Assembly: GCA_024684055.1 (NCBI GenBank)
Contig: JAIKXN010000166.1
Span: 1 to 64,000 of the forward strand
DNA length: 64,000 nucleotides
Direction: 5' to 3'
From: Lachnospiraceae bacterium
Lineage (GTDB): Bacteria; Bacillota; Clostridia; Lachnospirales; Lachnospiraceae
Shown one piece after another: positions 5,746 through 54,126 of the stretch. A program made the translations under genes and the position numbers. The notes below the pieces were generated by a model. That model saw only the letters and a program-made list of their open reading frames with translations, made no database searches and had not been told where the DNA came from. Each line of letters opens with the position of its first letter. Positions within the stretch are counted from its first letter, which is position 1.

Positions 5746-6651
5746 ATGGAATTCAAAGATGCAATAACAGGAAAAAACATAAATAAGAAATTCGGTAAAT
5801 TTGAACTGGATATTCCCGAAATTCATATTCCGGAAGGATTTGCAACGGCATTTATCGGAGAGAACGGTGCAGGAAAGACAACGCTTCTTAATATTCTTGC
5901 CGGTTTAAGACAGGACAACAAGGGTGAGGTCAGATACTTCGAAAACAGTTTAAGCATAGATGATAACGGAGTCCGCGAAAGAATAGGATATTCCGGAACG
6001 AAGCATCACCTTCTTCCTCACTGGACAGGCGAACAGGTAAAGGATCTTTCGAAAATGCTTTTCGATAATTTTGACGAGAAAAAATTCGAAGAAATCTGCA
6101 AAGCAATTAACATAGACGATTCGGTTTTCGGACCGAACGGAAAGATGATCGCAAAGCTTTCTGACGGTAACAAAATGAAACTTTCTCTTGCAACCGTATT
6201 TGCAAGAAGCACGGATATGCTTATCCTGGATGAACCGGCGTCCCCCCTCGATCCTTTAATGAGGGACCTGCTTTCCGATATGCTTCGTTCTTATCTTGCA
6301 GACGGTAACGGACAAAGAACAGTGGTTTTTTCAACGCACAACATCTCGGATATGGAAAATGTAACAGACTACATTTATGTAATAGATGACGGAAAGATTC
6401 TTGAGCACGGGTTTGTTACGGATATTAAGGAAAAGTATGTACTGGTTAAGGGAGACGGAAAGGCAGATAAAAAAATAAAGGATCTGATGATAAACTTCCA
6501 TGAGAACAGTTTCGGATACGAAGGAATTGTTCTGTCCGATAAAATGGACAGTTTCGCGGGTATGAATTTATCTTTTGAAACCCCGGGGCTTTTCCAGATA
6601 AGCGTAGCTCTTTTAAAGATGAATTCAAAACTCAGAATGCCTGAGATGTAA
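5746..6651 (+). CDS. ABC transporter ATP-binding protein (YtrB-like)
   Basis: 301 residues. Walker A GENGAGKTT is near residue 40, Walker B MLILDEPASPLDP near 160-172, and the H-loop STH near 194. The signature is the degenerate LSDGNKMKL instead of LSGGQ, as is common in YtrB/BcrA-type exporters. The C-terminal 80 residues are an exporter-specific extension. It is the second gene of a GntR-ABC unit and is followed by two integral membrane proteins that would be its permeases. The transported substrate cannot be read from sequence; a role in the cell-envelope stress or antimicrobial response is typical for this arrangement. Confidence 0.9.
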   Translation: MEFKDAITGKNINKKFGKFELDIPEIHIPEGFATAFIGENGAGKTTLLNILAGLRQDNKGEVRYFENSLSIDDNGVRERIGYSGTKHHLLPHWTGEQVKDLSKMLFDNFDEKKFEEICKAINIDDSVFGPNGKMIAKLSDGNKMKLSLATVFARSTDMLILDEPASPLDPLMRDLLSDMLRSYLADGNGQRTVVFSTHNISDMENVTDYIYVIDDGKILEHGFVTDIKEKYVLVKGDGKADKKIKDLMINFHENSFGYEGIVLSDKMDSFAGMNLSFETPGLFQISVALLKMNSKLRMPEM

Positions 6652-6680
6652 CAAAGTTTACGATTAGGAAAGGCAGAAAA

Positions 6681-7397
6681 ATGATCAGAATGATTAAGAA
6701 TTATCATGCGTTTTATCCAAAGAAAAATTTTTTGCTCACATATATATTATTCCCGGTTTTACTTATAGCGCTGTTAAATCTTATAACACATGTTTTTATA
6801 AGAAACCCTCAGCCGGAATCTTTCACGGCTATAAGAAGCGCGATCAGTATCATGGTTCCGACGTATTTTATGACAGCGGTGATTATATGCGACAGATTTG
6901 CGCTTGGAGCGATTCAGACAAAGAAAGGTTTAGTCAGTGAATATGTAAAGTCATCGGCAGGCGGAAAAAAACTTGTGACTGATGTTTTGGCATGGGATAT
7001 TTTTACAAGACTTTTTCTGGCAGCAGCTTTATTCGCGGGGCTGTTTCTTGCGATATATAAATTCATGCCGGAAGACAGTATGGTAAATATTTTGCTGAGA
7101 GCTTTTCTCGGAATAGTTTCGGCGCATATGGCCACAACGATCAATGTATTTTTTTCAAGAAAGATTGACAACCTTTTTTTGTTCCTTATAGTCACTTACT
7201 TTTCGATCACTGTATTGATACCTTACGCTGTTCTGGTAACTTTGGGAGCAGAGAATTTCATACTGATGATCACAGCCGGCATTCTTTTAATAATAGATGC
7301 GGTATTCAGTATCCTGTCGGTAACAGGTATGAAAAAAACAATAAATAAATACTGGTATTCGGATAACAGTCAGAAAGGAAACGATGATGACAATTAA
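6681..7397 (+). CDS. ABC transporter permease, ABC-2-like membrane protein
   Basis: 238 residues with about six hydrophobic segments (about 20-40, 55-75, 105-125, 140-155, 168-190, 196-212) and no soluble domain. I do not recognise a named family, but its position between an ABC ATPase and a second membrane protein of similar size indicates a permease subunit. AGGAAAGGCAG precedes the start. The last codons overlap the next gene, which suggests translational coupling. Confidence 0.75.
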   Translation: MIRMIKNYHAFYPKKNFLLTYILFPVLLIALLNLITHVFIRNPQPESFTAIRSAISIMVPTYFMTAVIICDRFALGAIQTKKGLVSEYVKSSAGGKKLVTDVLAWDIFTRLFLAAALFAGLFLAIYKFMPEDSMVNILLRAFLGIVSAHMATTINVFFSRKIDNLFLFLIVTYFSITVLIPYAVLVTLGAENFILMITAGILLIIDAVFSILSVTGMKKTINKYWYSDNSQKGNDDDN

Positions 7398-8091
7398 AGA
7401 ATCCATAAAATTGTATGATTACGTATATAAGAAAAATACACAGATACTTATAATAATAATGCAGTTTTTCATGTTTTTCGGTTATGCCTTTACAAATAAT
7501 CTGCAGACCATCGGCATTGTTCTTCTGAATACCGTTCTGGCAACGATCGCAACACAGTTTGCGCTTGTAACATTTTCTTCCTATGTAGTGTCTTCGGAAA
7601 AAATACAAAAATACGGTATCAGGAACCTTACGATAATAATGACGGCTGCAAATGTTGTGTTTTTCGCAATTTACCTTGGATTGAAACTCCTTAAGGGGTT
7701 TGCCTTAAAGGACTTCGATGATCTCTCGACTATGTTGTTTATTTACTGTATTGCAAATATTCTGATGTTCGTTTACGGAGCAATCGGATGCAAAAAAAGG
7801 GCAGCGGGCACTGTCATTCTTATCCTCCACGTAATCATTGGGCTTTCACAGATGCCTTTCTATATCAGAGGAACGGTATTGAAGATCATAAGCCGGATGC
7901 CGGGCGCGGAACCTTATACGGAAAGCAGGTTTGTCTTCACTTTTTTGCCGAATCCCGTAGTTATGATAATCATTTCGGTACTGGTTGTTTCGGTAATCTC
8001 TCCGCTTCTTTTATACGCACTTTCCATGAGCGTAAGAAAAGTATCCTACAGCAACCGCCTGCTGGATCGTCAGGAATACAACAAACTGTAA
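7384..8091 (+). CDS. ABC transporter permease, second membrane subunit
   Basis: 235 residues, six or seven hydrophobic segments, overlapping the previous gene by 14 bases. The start region reads ATGATG (7384 or 7387) after AAAGGAAACG. Like its neighbour it has no recognised motif, and the assignment rests on topology and on the GntR-ATPase-membrane-membrane order, which fits YtrA-controlled exporters with two permeases. No clear terminator follows; 8092-8288 carries only short palindromes (GAGAATTCTC at 8164, TTCACGTGAA at 8200). Confidence 0.7.
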   Translation: MMTIKESIKLYDYVYKKNTQILIIIMQFFMFFGYAFTNNLQTIGIVLLNTVLATIATQFALVTFSSYVVSSEKIQKYGIRNLTIIMTAANVVFFAIYLGLKLLKGFALKDFDDLSTMLFIYCIANILMFVYGAIGCKKRAAGTVILILHVIIGLSQMPFYIRGTVLKIISRMPGAEPYTESRFVFTFLPNPVVMIIISVLVVSVISPLLLYALSMSVRKVSYSNRLLDRQEYNKL

Positions 8092-9786: not shown

Positions 9787-10467
9787 TCAGTCAAGAATAT
9801 CAAGAATGCTGTCTTCTTTTTCTTTTTCGGAAGGAATAATTTCCTTCAGGTAATTAAGGATCGGTGCTTTTGTAAGACCGGTTAAAAGAGAAGCGGAAGA
9901 AACAAGGTAATTGATCTTGCTTAAATCGTCTTCCTCGAGATAAAGTGATGCCAGCAGCTTATAAGTGCTTATTGCATCGCTTCCGGAGGAAACGGCAAAT
10001 TCAAGCATGTTTTTGGCGGTTTCCTTATCCCCCTTTGAGTTAAAATATTCGCCCATGAGCTGAAGTGTTCTGACAAGCAGGACGAAATTCTGATCGTAAA
10101 GCGTAAGCTCGGGAAGGTTTGCCGCCCCGTAAGTGAGTTTCAAATCGGTATTCGAAATATTTGAAAAGTTGACGATTTTGCTTGTTTTCAAGTGTTTGAA
10201 AGCCGTAAGAGCTTCGGCAAAAACTTTTTCATGGCTTTCATCGGCTTCGATGAACTCGCCTTTGCCGTTTAAGAACGGAGCATATATTTCATCGGGGATG
10301 ATTATGTAATGAAGGTCATCGAGCGGCATTTTTCTTGTATTATCCGCTTCGGCTTCTCTTGCCCAGAAGGCTTTTTCGGCTTTTTCACCCTTTTTGTTGC
10401 TTTTTCTGATTTCATATGCAAGCCATATACAGAAGACTATAACGCTTGCAAAAACAGGAAATATCAT
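9787..10467 (-). CDS. Membrane-anchored helical (TPR-like) protein, unknown
   Basis: 226 residues. An N-terminal membrane helix (about 3-20, FPVFASVIVFCIWLAYEI) is followed by a basic stretch and a cytoplasmic or exposed domain; the last 100 residues are helical and resemble tetratricopeptide repeats (YFNSKGDKETAKNMLEFA). AAAGGAATTATAA precedes the start. It is divergent from the small ORF at 10510 with only 42 bases between, so the two share a control region. I cannot name a function. Confidence 0.7.
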   Translation of the reverse strand: MIFPVFASVIVFCIWLAYEIRKSNKKGEKAEKAFWAREAEADNTRKMPLDDLHYIIIPDEIYAPFLNGKGEFIEADESHEKVFAEALTAFKHLKTSKIVNFSNISNTDLKLTYGAANLPELTLYDQNFVLLVRTLQLMGEYFNSKGDKETAKNMLEFAVSSGSDAISTYKLLASLYLEEDDLSKINYLVSSASLLTGLTKAPILNYLKEIIPSEKEKEDSILDILD

Positions 10468-10509
10468 TTATAATTCCTTTCGTACACGTAGTTAAGAGGT
10501 GCACTTATT

Positions 10510-10611
10510 ATGATGAATTTACACACCAAAAAATCAAAAACCATTCTTGCCATTGTCGCGATCGTTTTATGCGTTGCGATGATTATTCCTTTTTTGGTAT
10601 CAATGTTTTAA
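10510..10611 (+). CDS. 33-residue membrane miniprotein
   Basis: MMNLHTKKSK is followed by a single hydrophobic helix of about 20 residues and ends LVSMF. AGAGG lies about 10 bases before the first ATG (10510) and slightly further from the second (10513). The basic N-terminus and C-terminal helix resemble small single-pass proteins such as the stressosome-associated Prli42 of Bacillus in layout only; I do not claim homology. It is divergent from the gene at 9787-10467. Reading frame, ribosome site and charge asymmetry support a real gene; conservation has not been tested. Confidence 0.5.
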   Translation: MMNLHTKKSKTILAIVAIVLCVAMIIPFLVSMF

Positions 10612-10727
10612 TCATGTTCCGATAAGGGTTATGGGTACATGCCGGTTAGAAGTTTAGCATGTAATTTTGTATCGTACGTAAAGTATAAGTGAAAAAGATA
10701 AAAAAAGCAACAAACCGGTGATACGCT

Positions 10728-11768
10728 ATGATAGAAGGTAAGATCCCTGAAAATGTTCTGAAAAGAAGCATTTTAAAGGAATTAAAAGTTAAAAATGAGA
10801 ATGTAATTACTGGCGCAGCTTTCGGAGAAGACTGCGCCATTTTGAATATGAATGGGGATAAAAAAATCCCTGCAGAAGCGTACGGAAAACTGGGAGCGGC
10901 GACTGCGTTTGCCGAAGGAAAAGAAAACGCAGGCACGGCAATTCACAAGGCTGCCAATAATCTTTATGCTTCGGGTTTTGATTTTGAATTTGCGGAAGTT
11001 TCTTTGATGCTTCGGGAAGATACTGAAGAAGCTGAAATAAAAGAAGTGATGCGCGAGGTCGATTCGGTTTGCGTCAAACTCGGGGGAACCATAGTCGGCG
11101 GACATACTGCGGTTTTGAAAAATCCGACCGGCGGAAATTCTGAAAATGAAGGGAAAAGCGGAAATATACTTCTCAGTGTAACCGCATTCGGCAGGTCTTT
11201 CGAGGAAAATCAAAAAGGCGTTTTAAGTAAGAAGAATATTTCGCCCGGAGATTCGATCGTGGTTTCGAAACAGATCGGAATCGAGGGTGCCCTGGAAATA
11301 TTACACACAAAGAGAGATGTGACAGCGGATCATTTCGGAGAATCTTTCCTTGGATTTTTCGAAGGATACGAAAATCTTCTTTCCGTAAAAAAAGAAAGCA
11401 AAATTGCCGTGAAAACAGGTGCGGTTTCGATGAAAGATGCGTCGGAACACGGAATATTCGGAGCACTCTGGGAGTTGGCGAGCGCTGCAAATCGCGGATT
11501 AAAAGTCGATCTGAAAGCGATTCCCGTAAGACAGGAGATCATCGAAATCTGCAATCTTTTCGACATCAATCCGTATGAGATGAAATCCTCGGGAATGCTT
11601 ATCATGGTAACAAAGGAACCCGATATTCTGACCGAAGCCCTTTTGAAAGAGGGAATTCCCGCAGCGGTAATCGGCACATTTACGGATAACAATGACAGAA
11701 TCGTTATAAACGGGGAAGAAACCAGATTCCTTGAAAAGATAAAACAGGATGCGGTTTATAAACTGTAA
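10728..11768 (+). CDS. AIR synthase-related protein (HypE/PurM superfamily)
   Basis: 346 residues with the two-domain layout of the PurM/HypE/ThiL superfamily: an N-terminal ATP-binding half with a GEDCAILN motif (like GDDAAV of HypE/ThiL), a Gly-rich GGTIVGGHT loop near residue 122, and a C-terminal half with GALWELASAANRG and KSSGMLIMV. Such proteins use ATP to activate a carbonyl or carbamoyl oxygen. No hydrogenase genes are nearby, so a HypE role is unlikely and the substrate is open. The Lrp regulator and aminotransferase follow in the same direction after 41 bases. The ribosome site (GGTGATACGCT) is weak. Confidence 0.75.
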   Translation: MIEGKIPENVLKRSILKELKVKNENVITGAAFGEDCAILNMNGDKKIPAEAYGKLGAATAFAEGKENAGTAIHKAANNLYASGFDFEFAEVSLMLREDTEEAEIKEVMREVDSVCVKLGGTIVGGHTAVLKNPTGGNSENEGKSGNILLSVTAFGRSFEENQKGVLSKKNISPGDSIVVSKQIGIEGALEILHTKRDVTADHFGESFLGFFEGYENLLSVKKESKIAVKTGAVSMKDASEHGIFGALWELASAANRGLKVDLKAIPVRQEIIEICNLFDINPYEMKSSGMLIMVTKEPDILTEALLKEGIPAAVIGTFTDNNDRIVINGEETRFLEKIKQDAVYKL

Positions 11769-51458: not shown

Positions 51459-52079
51459 ATGGACGTTAATTTTTTTTCAGCCCAGATAAAACAGTGGAAA
51501 AGAATATTTGATTATAAAGGAACGAGCACGGTAAAGGAATTTATATTCCCTGTGATCTTTAATGTCATTCTCGGCGTGATCGACCTGATATTAACATTCT
51601 TTGCTTTTTGTTTCGCAGCAAATTATGATGAATTGCTTTTCTTTATTTTCGTCATACCTGCGAGCATCATCACGCTTTATCTGCTTCTTTCGATCATCCC
51701 CGGAATTTCTCTTACGGTAAGAAGACTTCGCGCCGCAGGAAAGAGCGGATGGTGGGCGCTGCTTCTTCTTGTTTTCGGAATAGGACATGCGTATCTTCTT
51801 GTTTTGTGTACAGCGGTTACGATTTCCGCAGGAGGTTCGGCATTTATTCCGTCTTCCAACGCGCCGGAAGCCATTTACGGACCGCCGCCCGAATATTTCG
51901 ATCCCGATTACAATCAGAATGTCGATGTATACGGACCGCCGGAAGATTTTGAGCCGGATGAAAATCAGAATGAAGACGTATACGGACCGCCTTATACCAT
52001 AGAGCCGGATCCAAACGATTTCGATCCGATAGAGAACGCTGAGCCTGCCATTTACGGACCGCCTGAAATGTTCAAATAA
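51459..52079 (+). CDS. DUF805-like membrane protein with YGPP-repeat tail
   Basis: 206 residues. Residues 28-122 hold three or four hydrophobic helices with a DUF805 pattern (LTVRRLRAAGKSGWWALL). The last about 70 residues are acidic and contain four YGPP repeats at 140, 158, 175 and 199, most in the frame [IV]YGPP[PE]. The ATG at 51459 follows GGAGGGGAGA; in-frame starts farther upstream lie in the 3' duplication of the preceding gene. It lies 23 bases before the radical SAM/SPASM gene and may be its substrate. Function unknown. Confidence 0.85.
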   Translation: MDVNFFSAQIKQWKRIFDYKGTSTVKEFIFPVIFNVILGVIDLILTFFAFCFAANYDELLFFIFVIPASIITLYLLLSIIPGISLTVRRLRAAGKSGWWALLLLVFGIGHAYLLVLCTAVTISAGGSAFIPSSNAPEAIYGPPPEYFDPDYNQNVDVYGPPEDFEPDENQNEDVYGPPYTIEPDPNDFDPIENAEPAIYGPPEMFK

Positions 52080-52102
52080 ATAATCAGACCCGGGAGACTG
52101 AA

Positions 52103-53206
52103 ATGTTAAAAAAAGCAAAAAACAACTCCGGTCTTACCGCAAAAATTAAAAAAGATCATATGCAGCAACTTGCAGACTACAGGGAAGAGACATTGAGACC
52201 GAATCCGGATCTCAGGTCTCTTTTCTTGGAAATAACCCCGTTTTGCAATGAGCATTGTCTTCACTGCGGTTCAAGATGCGGAGATATAGACGTAAGCGGA
52301 ATGCTTACGGCTGATGAAATAAAAGATATTCTCATACAGGTAAAAAACGATTTCGACATATCCAATATGCGCCTTTGCGTAACCGGCGGAGAGCCTCTTC
52401 TTCGCCCTGAGTTTTTTGAAATAATGGAATTTGCGAAAAACGCAGGCTTCAGATGGGGCATGACTTCAAACGGAACGCTTATCACAAAGGAAGTTGCCCA
52501 AAAACTTAAAGAAACCGGACTCAGGACCGTATCGATAAGTGTCGACGGTCTTAAAGAAAACCACGAATGGTTCAGACAGTCGCCCGGCGCTTACGAAAAG
52601 ACCATAGAGGGAATCAAAAACCTTATTGAGCAGGATATTAACCACGTCCAGATCACAACAGTAATCTATCACAAAAACATAAATGAACTCGACGCCATGT
52701 ACGAGGAATTCAAAAAAGTCGGTGTCCGTTCATGGAGAGTCATAAACATCGAGCCCATCGGAAGGGCAAAGGACAATCCGGATCTTATGCTTTCAAAAGC
52801 CGAATACAGAAAGCTTTTCGACTTCATCAGAAACAAAAGATTCGAAGACAAAATGGAAGTTACCTACGGCTGTTCCCATTATCTCGGTGTTGACATGGAA
52901 AGGGAAGTCAGAAAATGGTACTTCCTCTGCAACGCCGGCGTTTACACAGCCAGCATCATGTACAACGGGGATATCGGCGGATGCCTTGATATCGAAAGGC
53001 GCCCCGAGCTCATTCAGGGAAATGTCAGAAAAGACAACTTCAAAGAAGTATGGCAGAACCGCTTCGAGAATTTCAGAAACGATTTCCGAAAGACCGGTCC
53101 CTGCGCCGACTGTCCCGATTACAAATTCTGCGCAGGAGATTCCTTCCACACCTGGAACTTCGACGAAATGAAGCCAAACCTCTGCATGAAAGGCATTTTA
53201 TTTTGA
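52103..53206 (+). CDS. Radical SAM/SPASM enzyme
   Basis: 367 residues. The AdoMet radical motif is CNEHCLHC (CX3CX2C, Cys48, Cys52, Cys55), with CVTGGEPLLRPEF for SAM binding. The C-terminal SPASM domain has YGCSHYLGV, FLCNAGVY, CADCPDYKFC and a last Cys, enough for extra Fe-S clusters. From memory it resembles the rSAM/lipoprotein family (TIGR04133) of Bacteroides, with the WECTLRCN-like strand and CADC. The gene follows the YGPP protein by 23 bases; a lipoprotein lies about 520 bases downstream. Substrate unknown. Its stop TGA begins a REP-like palindrome. Confidence 0.92.
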   Translation: MLKKAKNNSGLTAKIKKDHMQQLADYREETLRPNPDLRSLFLEITPFCNEHCLHCGSRCGDIDVSGMLTADEIKDILIQVKNDFDISNMRLCVTGGEPLLRPEFFEIMEFAKNAGFRWGMTSNGTLITKEVAQKLKETGLRTVSISVDGLKENHEWFRQSPGAYEKTIEGIKNLIEQDINHVQITTVIYHKNINELDAMYEEFKKVGVRSWRVINIEPIGRAKDNPDLMLSKAEYRKLFDFIRNKRFEDKMEVTYGCSHYLGVDMEREVRKWYFLCNAGVYTASIMYNGDIGGCLDIERRPELIQGNVRKDNFKEVWQNRFENFRNDFRKTGPCADCPDYKFCAGDSFHTWNFDEMKPNLCMKGILF

Positions 53207-53232
53207 CACAGGGGGACGGGGTTTGTGTGTCA
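53204..53232 (+). repeat. REP-like palindrome at the radical SAM stop codon
   Basis: TGACACA (53204-53210) and TGTGTCA (53226-53232) are perfect arms around GGGGGACGGGG. From memory TGACACA-GGGGACGG-TGTGTCA elements are dispersed in many Clostridia and are linked to Y1 (RAYT) transposases. The rest of 53233-53400 shows nothing further. Confidence 0.7.
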
Positions 53233-53400
53233 TTTCCACAGATCCGGGCTTTTTATATCATAATAATGCAAATCGCAATTTGATGGGATAAAGCAAAAGG
53301 GAGACAGCTGAAAGAAATGAAACAGATCGGGTATTAGATGTCAGGACTGCAACGAAGGGATTCATTCAGATATTTTCAATAAAGGAAAGAAGGAACATAA

Positions 53401-53577
53401 ATGGATATTTCTTGTGAAGAATGCGCAAATTTTGTATTTGACGATGATGAAGAAGAATATGTATGCTGCGTGAGCATGGATGAGGACGATTATATTCGTC
53501 TGAATACGGACTCACATTATCAGTGTCCGTACTATCAGTGCGGGGATGAATACAAGATAGTCAGACACCAGATGTGA
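53401..53577 (+). CDS. DUF6472-like Cys-rich miniprotein
   Basis: 58 residues, very acidic, with Cys in CEEC, VCCV and CPYYQC, which could bind one metal ion. The pattern (Y-D-D-E, MDEDD, CPYY, DEY-IV-HQ) matches the DUF6472 family of Lachnospiraceae miniproteins. AAGGAACATAA precedes the ATG. It is shorter than 60 codons and easily missed. Confidence 0.85.
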   Translation: MDISCEECANFVFDDDEEEYVCCVSMDEDDYIRLNTDSHYQCPYYQCGDEYKIVRHQM

Positions 53578-53721
53578 TTTAGACATTTGAGCAAACAGAC
53601 ATCAGACGAAATTAAGGATTCAGATGTAATCAGGACTTTGCAAAATATAAAATCCGGGCCGGTGTAAGATAAACATCGGATATAATAAAAAAAAGAAAAT
53701 GAAAAGTGAGGGGAAATAAAT

Positions 53722-54126
53722 ATGAAGAAAGCAATCAGTATATGCCTTTGTACGATTTTTTCGGTGCTTATGCTTTGCGGATGCGGCGGGGCGCAGTATG
53801 ATGAATCGGGAAACGCATCGATCAACAATAAGTGGGAGCTTGTTGAATATACCATAAACGGGAGCAGAAGCGAAATGGCATCGATCCCGCCTGCCGTCAA
53901 AATATTTACGGCTTCCAAGGAGCCTAAGTTTGTGGTTAAAAACGGCGGAACGACATGCATATTCAGCGTAAATGAAAACGATCGTGAAGGAACGATAACT
54001 GACGAAGGAGATCACTACAGGATCGATTTTGATAAGGGAAAAGATCTGCTTGCGACAATAAACGGGAACGAGCTCGTGCTTGTGAACGAAACGCAGACTC
54101 TGGAAATGATATTCAAAGTAAAATAA
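53722..54126 (+). CDS. Small lipoprotein, lipocalin-like
   Basis: 134 residues. A signal sequence ending in the lipobox MLCGC predicts a lipid anchor; the mature part of about 110 residues has a beta-strand pattern (WELVEYTINGS near 38, YRIDFDKGKDLLATINGN near 100) seen in lipocalin-like or DUF4923-like proteins. GTGAGGGGAAATAAAT precedes the start. It may be the lipoprotein partner of the radical SAM enzyme upstream; that is inference from position. Confidence 0.8.
   Translation: MKKAISICLCTIFSVLMLCGCGGAQYDESGNASINNKWELVEYTINGSRSEMASIPPAVKIFTASKEPKFVVKNGGTTCIFSVNENDREGTITDEGDHYRIDFDKGKDLLATINGNELVLVNETQTLEMIFKVK

Follow-up and report, generated by a model that had tools for sequence, protein, structure and literature searches.

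The stretch of DNA analysed here (the window) comprises 64,000 nucleotides of contig JAIKXN010000166.1 from a Lachnospiraceae bacterium (GenBank assembly GCA_024684055.1). It encodes a DUF805 membrane protein with repeats of Tyr-Gly-Pro-Pro (YGPP) in its acidic tail and, 23 bases downstream, a radical S-adenosylmethionine (SAM) enzyme with a SPASM domain (Table 1). The gene order is a semialdehyde dehydrogenase that we take to be ArgC-like, a PlsC-like acyltransferase, the DUF805 protein, the radical SAM enzyme, a DUF6472 miniprotein, a lipoprotein and a Sir2 deacylase. The original prediction, made from the sequence alone, had described the DUF805 protein with four repeats, the enzyme at this spacing, and a Cys-rich miniprotein and small lipoprotein beyond it, and all were confirmed. 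The DUF805 frame starts with ATG, ends with a stop codon and passes the gathering score of its family (49.5 bits, cut-off 25.7), and its four units were located. The enzyme passes the cut-offs of both PF04055 (94.4 bits) and PF13186 (SPASM, 38.4 bits). The miniprotein matches DUF6472 and the lipoprotein has a lipobox-like sequence.

Table 1. Features of the locus in the window, with the role proposed for each.
Feature	Position	Strand	Basis
DUF805 membrane protein, 206 aa, acidic C-terminal tail with four YGPP units; proposed substrate	51459..52079	+	PF05656
YGPP unit 1, AIYGPPPEYF	51876..51887	+	sequence
YGPP unit 2, DVYGPPEDF	51930..51941	+	sequence
YGPP unit 3, DVYGPPYTI	51981..51992	+	sequence
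YGPP unit 4, AIYGPPEMFK, C-terminal end	52053..52064	+	sequence
Radical SAM/SPASM enzyme, 367 aa; proposed modifier of YGPP tags	52103..53206	+	PF04055, PF13186, TIGR04133
DUF6472 Cys-rich miniprotein; neighbour, probably outside the system	53401..53577	+	PF20076, 84.1 bits
Small lipoprotein; neighbour, unlikely substrate	53722..54126	+	lipobox-like LCGC, without YG

The DUF805 protein was aligned with 10 relatives, and the enzyme in a set of 24 sequences. In the latter alignment the CxxxCxxC motif lies at C48/C52/C55, and eight further cysteines (C59, C257, C276, C294, C334, C337, C343 and C361) are invariant. A search of the organism's own genome with a YGPP-coding DNA pattern gave four matches besides the DUF805 gene. 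Two of these, named by Pfam as RuvB and an MgsA/RarA-type ATPase, are P-loops (YGPPG-GKT), and the other two are short open frames of 41 and 47 residues; these apart, the scan gave no tagged protein in this genome beyond the DUF805 protein.

Conservation of the enzyme and the YGPP proteins

A scan of a genome collection with an enzyme profile found 119 relatives, of which the best 80 were kept; because it relied on two conserved enzyme peptides, the scan did not select for YGPP. The records of these 80 loci are titled Lachnospiraceae, Oscillospiraceae, Ruminococcus, other Clostridia or Bacillota, and many come from rumen or gut samples. For the count that follows, one locus lacking the enzyme start (L112) was dropped, and L129 was entered as without an adjacent YGPP gene, its upstream match being a false one in a 50-residue chance frame; acceptance of the remaining upstream frames was by visual inspection. 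Of the 79 loci, 69 have a YGPP frame immediately 5′ of the enzyme gene: in 68 it precedes the enzyme frame by no more than 142 bases, and in L085 it is cut by the contig end. Of the ten loci left over, six (L088, L091, L095, L097, L101 and L129) come from genomes where a DUF805-YGPP gene is present but unlinked, and three (L131, L138 and L139) from genomes with YGPP frames elsewhere, in L131 one frame with a single unit. L094, from genome G021, is the only one of the 79 loci for which no YGPP gene was found. Among 398 sampled genomes of the phylum, two had the enzyme at E ≤ 1e-70: the organism's own and that of L157, where a YGPP frame overlaps the enzyme start. Conservation of the pair reaches far outside the window and exceeds what chance would give.

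The survey of the genus covered 61 genomes, the organism's own and 60 relatives, with 31 belonging to the genus. The enzyme was found at E ≤ 1e-60 in 23 of the 61 (two as partial matches), all within the genus. A DUF805-YGPP profile was present in 22 of these 23 genomes and in 0 of the 8 enzyme-negative genus members, the sole exception being G021, a 73% complete genome; two weak profile matches in other families of the order were frames without YGPP. DUF805 itself followed the same division, with 22 of the 31 genus genomes positive and 0 of the 8, and the number of YGPP units in genus members ranges from 3 to 8. DNA coding for [VILM]YGPP[ED] was likewise present in 22/23 enzyme-positive versus 0/8 enzyme-negative genus genomes. 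Outside the genus this pattern matched in 2 of 30 genomes (G053 and G054), in frames of only 43 and 34 residues that were judged to be chance, and a reversed control pattern matched in 1 of 61. Since the DUF805-YGPP gene and the enzyme lie on separate contigs in seven genomes (G002, G004, G014, G017, G024, G025 and G028), the link between them is independent of adjacency. Genome G023 holds two copies of the pair, on C44 and C88 (L012 and L032), and has a contamination estimate of 6%. The neighbourhood survey that the original prediction had proposed found a conserved pair, yet with a carrier that varies beyond DUF805, and the repeats behave as the target of the enzyme, as had been suggested.

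Tag sequence and carriers

The tag is about 17 residues long, roughly [FY]-x-P-x-x-N-x-x-x-x-[VIL]-Y-G-P-P-[E/P]-[WMF]-[F]. It was examined in 323 distinct YG windows of YGPP carriers, in which Tyr and Gly are 100% by construction and which still include the chance frame of L129 and YG outside tags. The preceding position is Val in 62%, Leu in 10% and Ile in 8%; Pro occurs at +2 in 88% and at +3 in 83%; Pro at −9 is present in 172 windows, Asn at −6 in 166 and both in 124. When Gly was not required, in 78 units of the form Q-x-h-Y, the Tyr was followed by Gly in 74, then by Pro in 58 and by a second Pro in 50. Tyr-Gly is kept more strictly than Pro-Pro. Either Tyr or Pro had been put forward as the modified residue; the Tyr half of that proposal holds up, in that the target is likely Tyr-Gly, as at the Xaa-Tyr-Gly (XYG) sites of spliceases, and Pro is the less likely.

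These counts also bear on the possibility that the enzyme alters the tag by a different reaction, such as epimerisation, hydroxylation or decarboxylation, or one that alters its Pro, Asn or aromatic positions. The chemical diversity of SPASM enzymes and the frequency of Asn(−6) and Pro(−9) in the tag speak for it; degenerate units, however, retain YG while the rest changes, and we regard this explanation as quite unlikely. Thioether chemistry of the sactipeptide or ranthipeptide kind was set aside as unlikely because the tag has no conserved Cys and just 47 of the 323 windows contain any.

At the enzyme loci 81 YGPP-bearing frames were collected, with 21 matching DUF805, 20 Dockerin_1 and 1 LGT; a lipobox-like pattern (a loose expression, counted by eye) was present in 31. 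Several Ruminococcus loci (L119, L120, L130 and L151) have two to four consecutive YGPP genes. Dockerin-like YGPP proteins, which are possibly cellulosomal, precede the enzyme gene in Ruminococcus and relatives (L119, L120, L128, L130, L135, L140, L142, L146–L148, L151, L153 and L155). In L155 (7363–10999) a YGPP dockerin protein paired with a radical SAM/SPASM enzyme apparently occurs twice in tandem, the second enzyme frame being at 9938–10999. In L126 the lipoprotein-processing enzyme Lgt (6542–7591), which has a C-terminal YGPP tail, seems to share an operon with the radical SAM enzyme and a YGPP lipoprotein.

The tag is also found away from the enzyme. Dihydropteroate synthase (FolP; PF00809, 281 bits) ends in a YGPP tag in six species (G003, G005, G007, G013, G020 and G023; L204 1279–2160 on the minus strand, L202, L203, L205, L212 and L219), and this tag, FEPPMNEPQCIYGPPEMFNQ and similar, begins right where the FolP of untagged relatives stops. 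It was not found in the eight other readable enzyme-positive genomes, the organism's own included, nor in three readable enzyme-negative ones, and since the tree unites the six species (83/80) it represents one gain. A transporter of the major facilitator superfamily (MFS; L210 4–1353, PF07690) ends in VYGPPEEM, and in G009 two small proteins without a Pfam match (L207 1225–1449 and L208 1236–1481) have a single IYGPPE tag each. YGPP frames of 51 and 23 residues in L209 and L211 were judged to be chance. Units of the DUF805 tail, such as FDPSQNVQEEVYGPPEIF, share their grammar with the FolP and MFS tags. The same tag on unrelated carriers is, at the level of sequence, the strongest sign of portability, and YGPP behaves as a portable tag, not as a speciality of DUF805.

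A portable tag might instead be a docking or localisation signal, with the enzyme acting elsewhere as a merely co-inherited neighbour. The presence of the pair within the genus follows the tree, and recruitment is suggested by the tagged FolP, MFS and Lgt proteins, both of which this explanation would accommodate. It has more difficulty with unrelated carriers beside the same enzyme in differing genomic contexts, with the occurrence of the tag elsewhere in the genome where it is not adjacent, and with the YG-bearing partners that likewise adjoin kin enzymes (below), and we consider it improbable.

Enzyme family and known relatives

The best NCBIfam model for the enzyme is TIGR04133, and two distant YGPP enzymes scored 282.1 and 294.4 bits against it. 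The resemblance to the rSAM/lipoprotein system of Bacteroidota and Treponema (TIGR04133/TIGR04134) noted in the original prediction is borne out to the extent that TIGR04133 is the nearest named enzyme family and falls together with the YGPP enzymes in the enzyme tree (98/97), although the window enzyme, at 292.5 bits, stays under the cut-off of 425. In that system, plasmid TIGR04133 enzymes of Parabacteroides, Treponema and Phocaeicola adjoin TIGR04134 lipoproteins containing CEYGSP, CYGMP and CEYGTP. All three lipoproteins seen (L158 4072–4914, L159 4559–4948 and L160 6026–6514) have one YG[STM]P near the lipobox Cys, which by sequence suggests a YG target for the TIGR04133 family. The window differs in its partner, a DUF805 protein with four YGPP units in place of a TIGR04134 lipoprotein, and in other genomes the carrier varies. 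Neither the DUF805 protein nor the window lipoprotein matches TIGR04134, and no TIGR04134 lipoprotein was found in the organism's own genome, a weak negative given that the same search returned nothing in any control genome.

The kinship with TIGR04133 is what could recommend the neighbouring lipoprotein as the substrate, an alternative raised in the original prediction. Neighbours were compared in 38 loci from the 80 fetched, some of which end too soon downstream to tell. A lipoprotein of this type was found in 0 of the 38, and, with no YG of its own and no conserved place next to the enzyme, it is an unlikely substrate; we set it aside as highly improbable. The DUF6472 protein, also without YG, was set aside as well; its gene lies 3′ of the enzyme in 12 of the 38 loci, those of the nearest relatives (L076–L087), followed in most by Sir2.

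A second kin system involves TIGR04103, presumably the model that matches the splicease PlpX. In Nostoc sp. C057 a TIGR04103 enzyme (853 bits) adjoins a Nif11 precursor (L161 4615–4884) ending in ALYGLPPELF, which as a sequence is strikingly like VYGPPEMF; a second nearby Nif11 precursor is without YG. Five DUF1843 peptides of the TIGR03913 kind were also inspected. Three of them have YG (PYG, PYG and AYG), a likeness between this GDL-motif/DUF1843 system and the window, whereas the peptides are small, two of the five are without YG, and their enzyme family is nearer to TIGR04103. TIGR04103 and TIGR03913 form a separate group in the enzyme tree, with an unsettled placement; the outgroups include long branches. 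In Tropicibacter oceani a TIGR04103/TIGR03913-like radical SAM gene overlaps the gene of a trypsin-like peptidase (L165 2174–4982).

PlpX is described in one report as a SPASM radical SAM enzyme of IPR026482 which, with the RRE (RiPP recognition element) protein PlpY, excises tyramine at Xaa-Tyr-Gly and leaves an α-keto amide (PMC11002830). Its natural sites are given as MYG and LYG, with no need for a leader, and short splice tags are said to be accepted in several foreign proteins, in a second report (PMC10533398). The window enzyme likewise is a radical SAM protein of SPASM type, and each unit of its proposed substrate contains XYG (AIYG, DVYG, DVYG and AIYG), so that [V/I]-Y-G-P-P fits, in sequence terms, the target class of XYG spliceases. 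The proposed substrates of the window type are whole membrane, secreted and cytosolic proteins, in contrast to the Nif11 or nitrile-hydratase-type precursors of PlpX. The system also departs from those making ribosomally synthesized and post-translationally modified peptides (RiPPs) in general, in that the proposed substrate is a membrane protein of 206 residues and not a small precursor with a leader, and in that the four scanned neighbours, PlsC-like, DUF6472, the lipoprotein and Sir2, are of kinds other than a protease or an exporter.

Proposed modification of the tag

The reading that we favour is that the radical SAM/SPASM enzyme would recognise the modular tag of about 17 residues and chemically modify its Tyr-Gly core in a splicease-like reaction, presumably with the carrier still in the cytoplasm; as a whole we assign this a probability of about 0.55. 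Its parts differ in strength. From the sequence comparisons, the enzyme very probably modifies the YGPP tag. By analogy with PlpX, tyramine excision at XYG is the leading candidate for the chemistry, with the odds standing about even. The positive-inside rule would place the acidic tail of the DUF805 protein outside the membrane, where four copies of the tag could yield an array of electrophilic β-residues on the finished protein. If we had to guess at their use, we would name tight or covalent binding, or the inhibition of proteases by analogy with spliceotides, which are called protease inhibitors (PMC11117315); the proposed function is doubtful. A reactive keto-β-residue could, as a guess, bind amines or proteases and, on dockerin proteins, could serve in shielding or anchoring.

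The main rival is a crosslink of the Tyr ring within the same tag, without excision, for instance to the β-carbon of whatever residue follows Gly, the type of link in three-residue cyclophane peptides such as Trp-Gly-Lys, or to the Val in front of the Tyr. Several SPASM enzymes crosslink peptides, and the fold leaves room for this: the AlphaFold model of the enzyme (predicted local distance difference test score 90.5) has SkfB, SuiB, MoaA, PqqE and anSME as its best PDB neighbours, with SuiB, PqqE and SkfB among the crosslinking enzymes. As far as a model can tell, these neighbours indicate a SPASM-type enzyme and do not discriminate the reaction. Trp-Gly-Lys, three-residue cyclophane and Val-Tyr crosslinks are chemistries of this kind, the WgkB and mycofactocin models score about equal to TIGR04103, and the position two after Tyr is not Gly in any of the 78 Q-x-h-Y units. 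The nearly fixed Gly after Tyr, on the other hand, is needed for XYG splicing and not obviously for a crosslink, and the residue after Gly is mostly Pro, which is not a usual crosslink partner. We regard crosslinking as unlikely.

A number of observations weigh against splicease-like modification of a portable tag. The enzyme lies far under the TIGR04103 cut-off (127.9 bits, cut-off 725), with six other models, including AhbD and NirJ2, scoring higher and mycofactocin just behind, and the YGPP enzymes group in the tree with TIGR04133, not with TIGR04103; neither tree nor hidden Markov models placed the enzyme inside the splicease family. No RRE or PlpY-like protein was detected with NCBIfam and Pfam among the four neighbours scanned, a further difference from PlpX-PlpY. 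Two PqqD-like (RRE-type) domains of the organism's own genome do exceed the cut-off; they are encoded on a different contig, C170, in one frame of 401 and one of 95 residues (L289 and L290), and an RRE partner might act in trans from there. A weaker PqqD-like match lies on C171 (L291), in a frame of 480 residues with CxxxCxxC. Most of the tags shown in the FtsZ table of PMC10533398, including those with PLYGLPI, are unmodified, and one longer GYGLPI tag is modified. The presence of the enzyme in the genus is explained by one or two changes on a FolP tree (18 of 20 rows used, G018 and G047 being left out), so that the genus census does not represent many independent events, and many independent co-losses are not supported. 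Of the 14 enzyme-positive genomes in which the FolP end could be read, 6 have the tag, and these belong to a single clade. Lastly, DUF805, lipoprotein and dockerin carriers suggest display at or outside the membrane, with which FolP, a cytosolic protein, fits poorly if the function is purely at the surface; the tails of the Lgt and MFS proteins are presumably also cytosolic. The idea of a surface-only tag was dropped because FolP carries it.

Taken in its full breadth, the proposal is that one radical SAM enzyme and a portable tag (F-x-P-x-x-N-x-x-x-x-V-Y-G-P-P-E-M-F) rewrite the backbones of unrelated full-length proteins in gut and rumen Clostridia, leaving one keto-β-amino acid per tag, with membrane proteins, lipoproteins, dockerin proteins, a lipoprotein-processing enzyme and a folate enzyme as targets. 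We offer this tentatively, at slightly under even odds. A literature search on the motif and the named families gave no description of a YGPP motif among the matches listed, and overlap with the surveys of Scott et al. (2022) and Morinaka et al. (2018) is possible.

Were the tag modified, a radical enzyme would be editing ordinary proteins through a short portable sequence, cellulosome-type dockerin proteins and FolP included, and such a process would amount to tag-directed editing of proteins, as opposed to the biosynthesis of a peptide natural product. The tags would offer natural multi-site sequences for site-specific protein labelling. A single Tyr-Gly target would moreover link TIGR04133/TIGR04134, TIGR04103/Nif11 and the YGPP pair, which are kept apart by NCBI, and would give the TIGR04133 family a testable chemistry.

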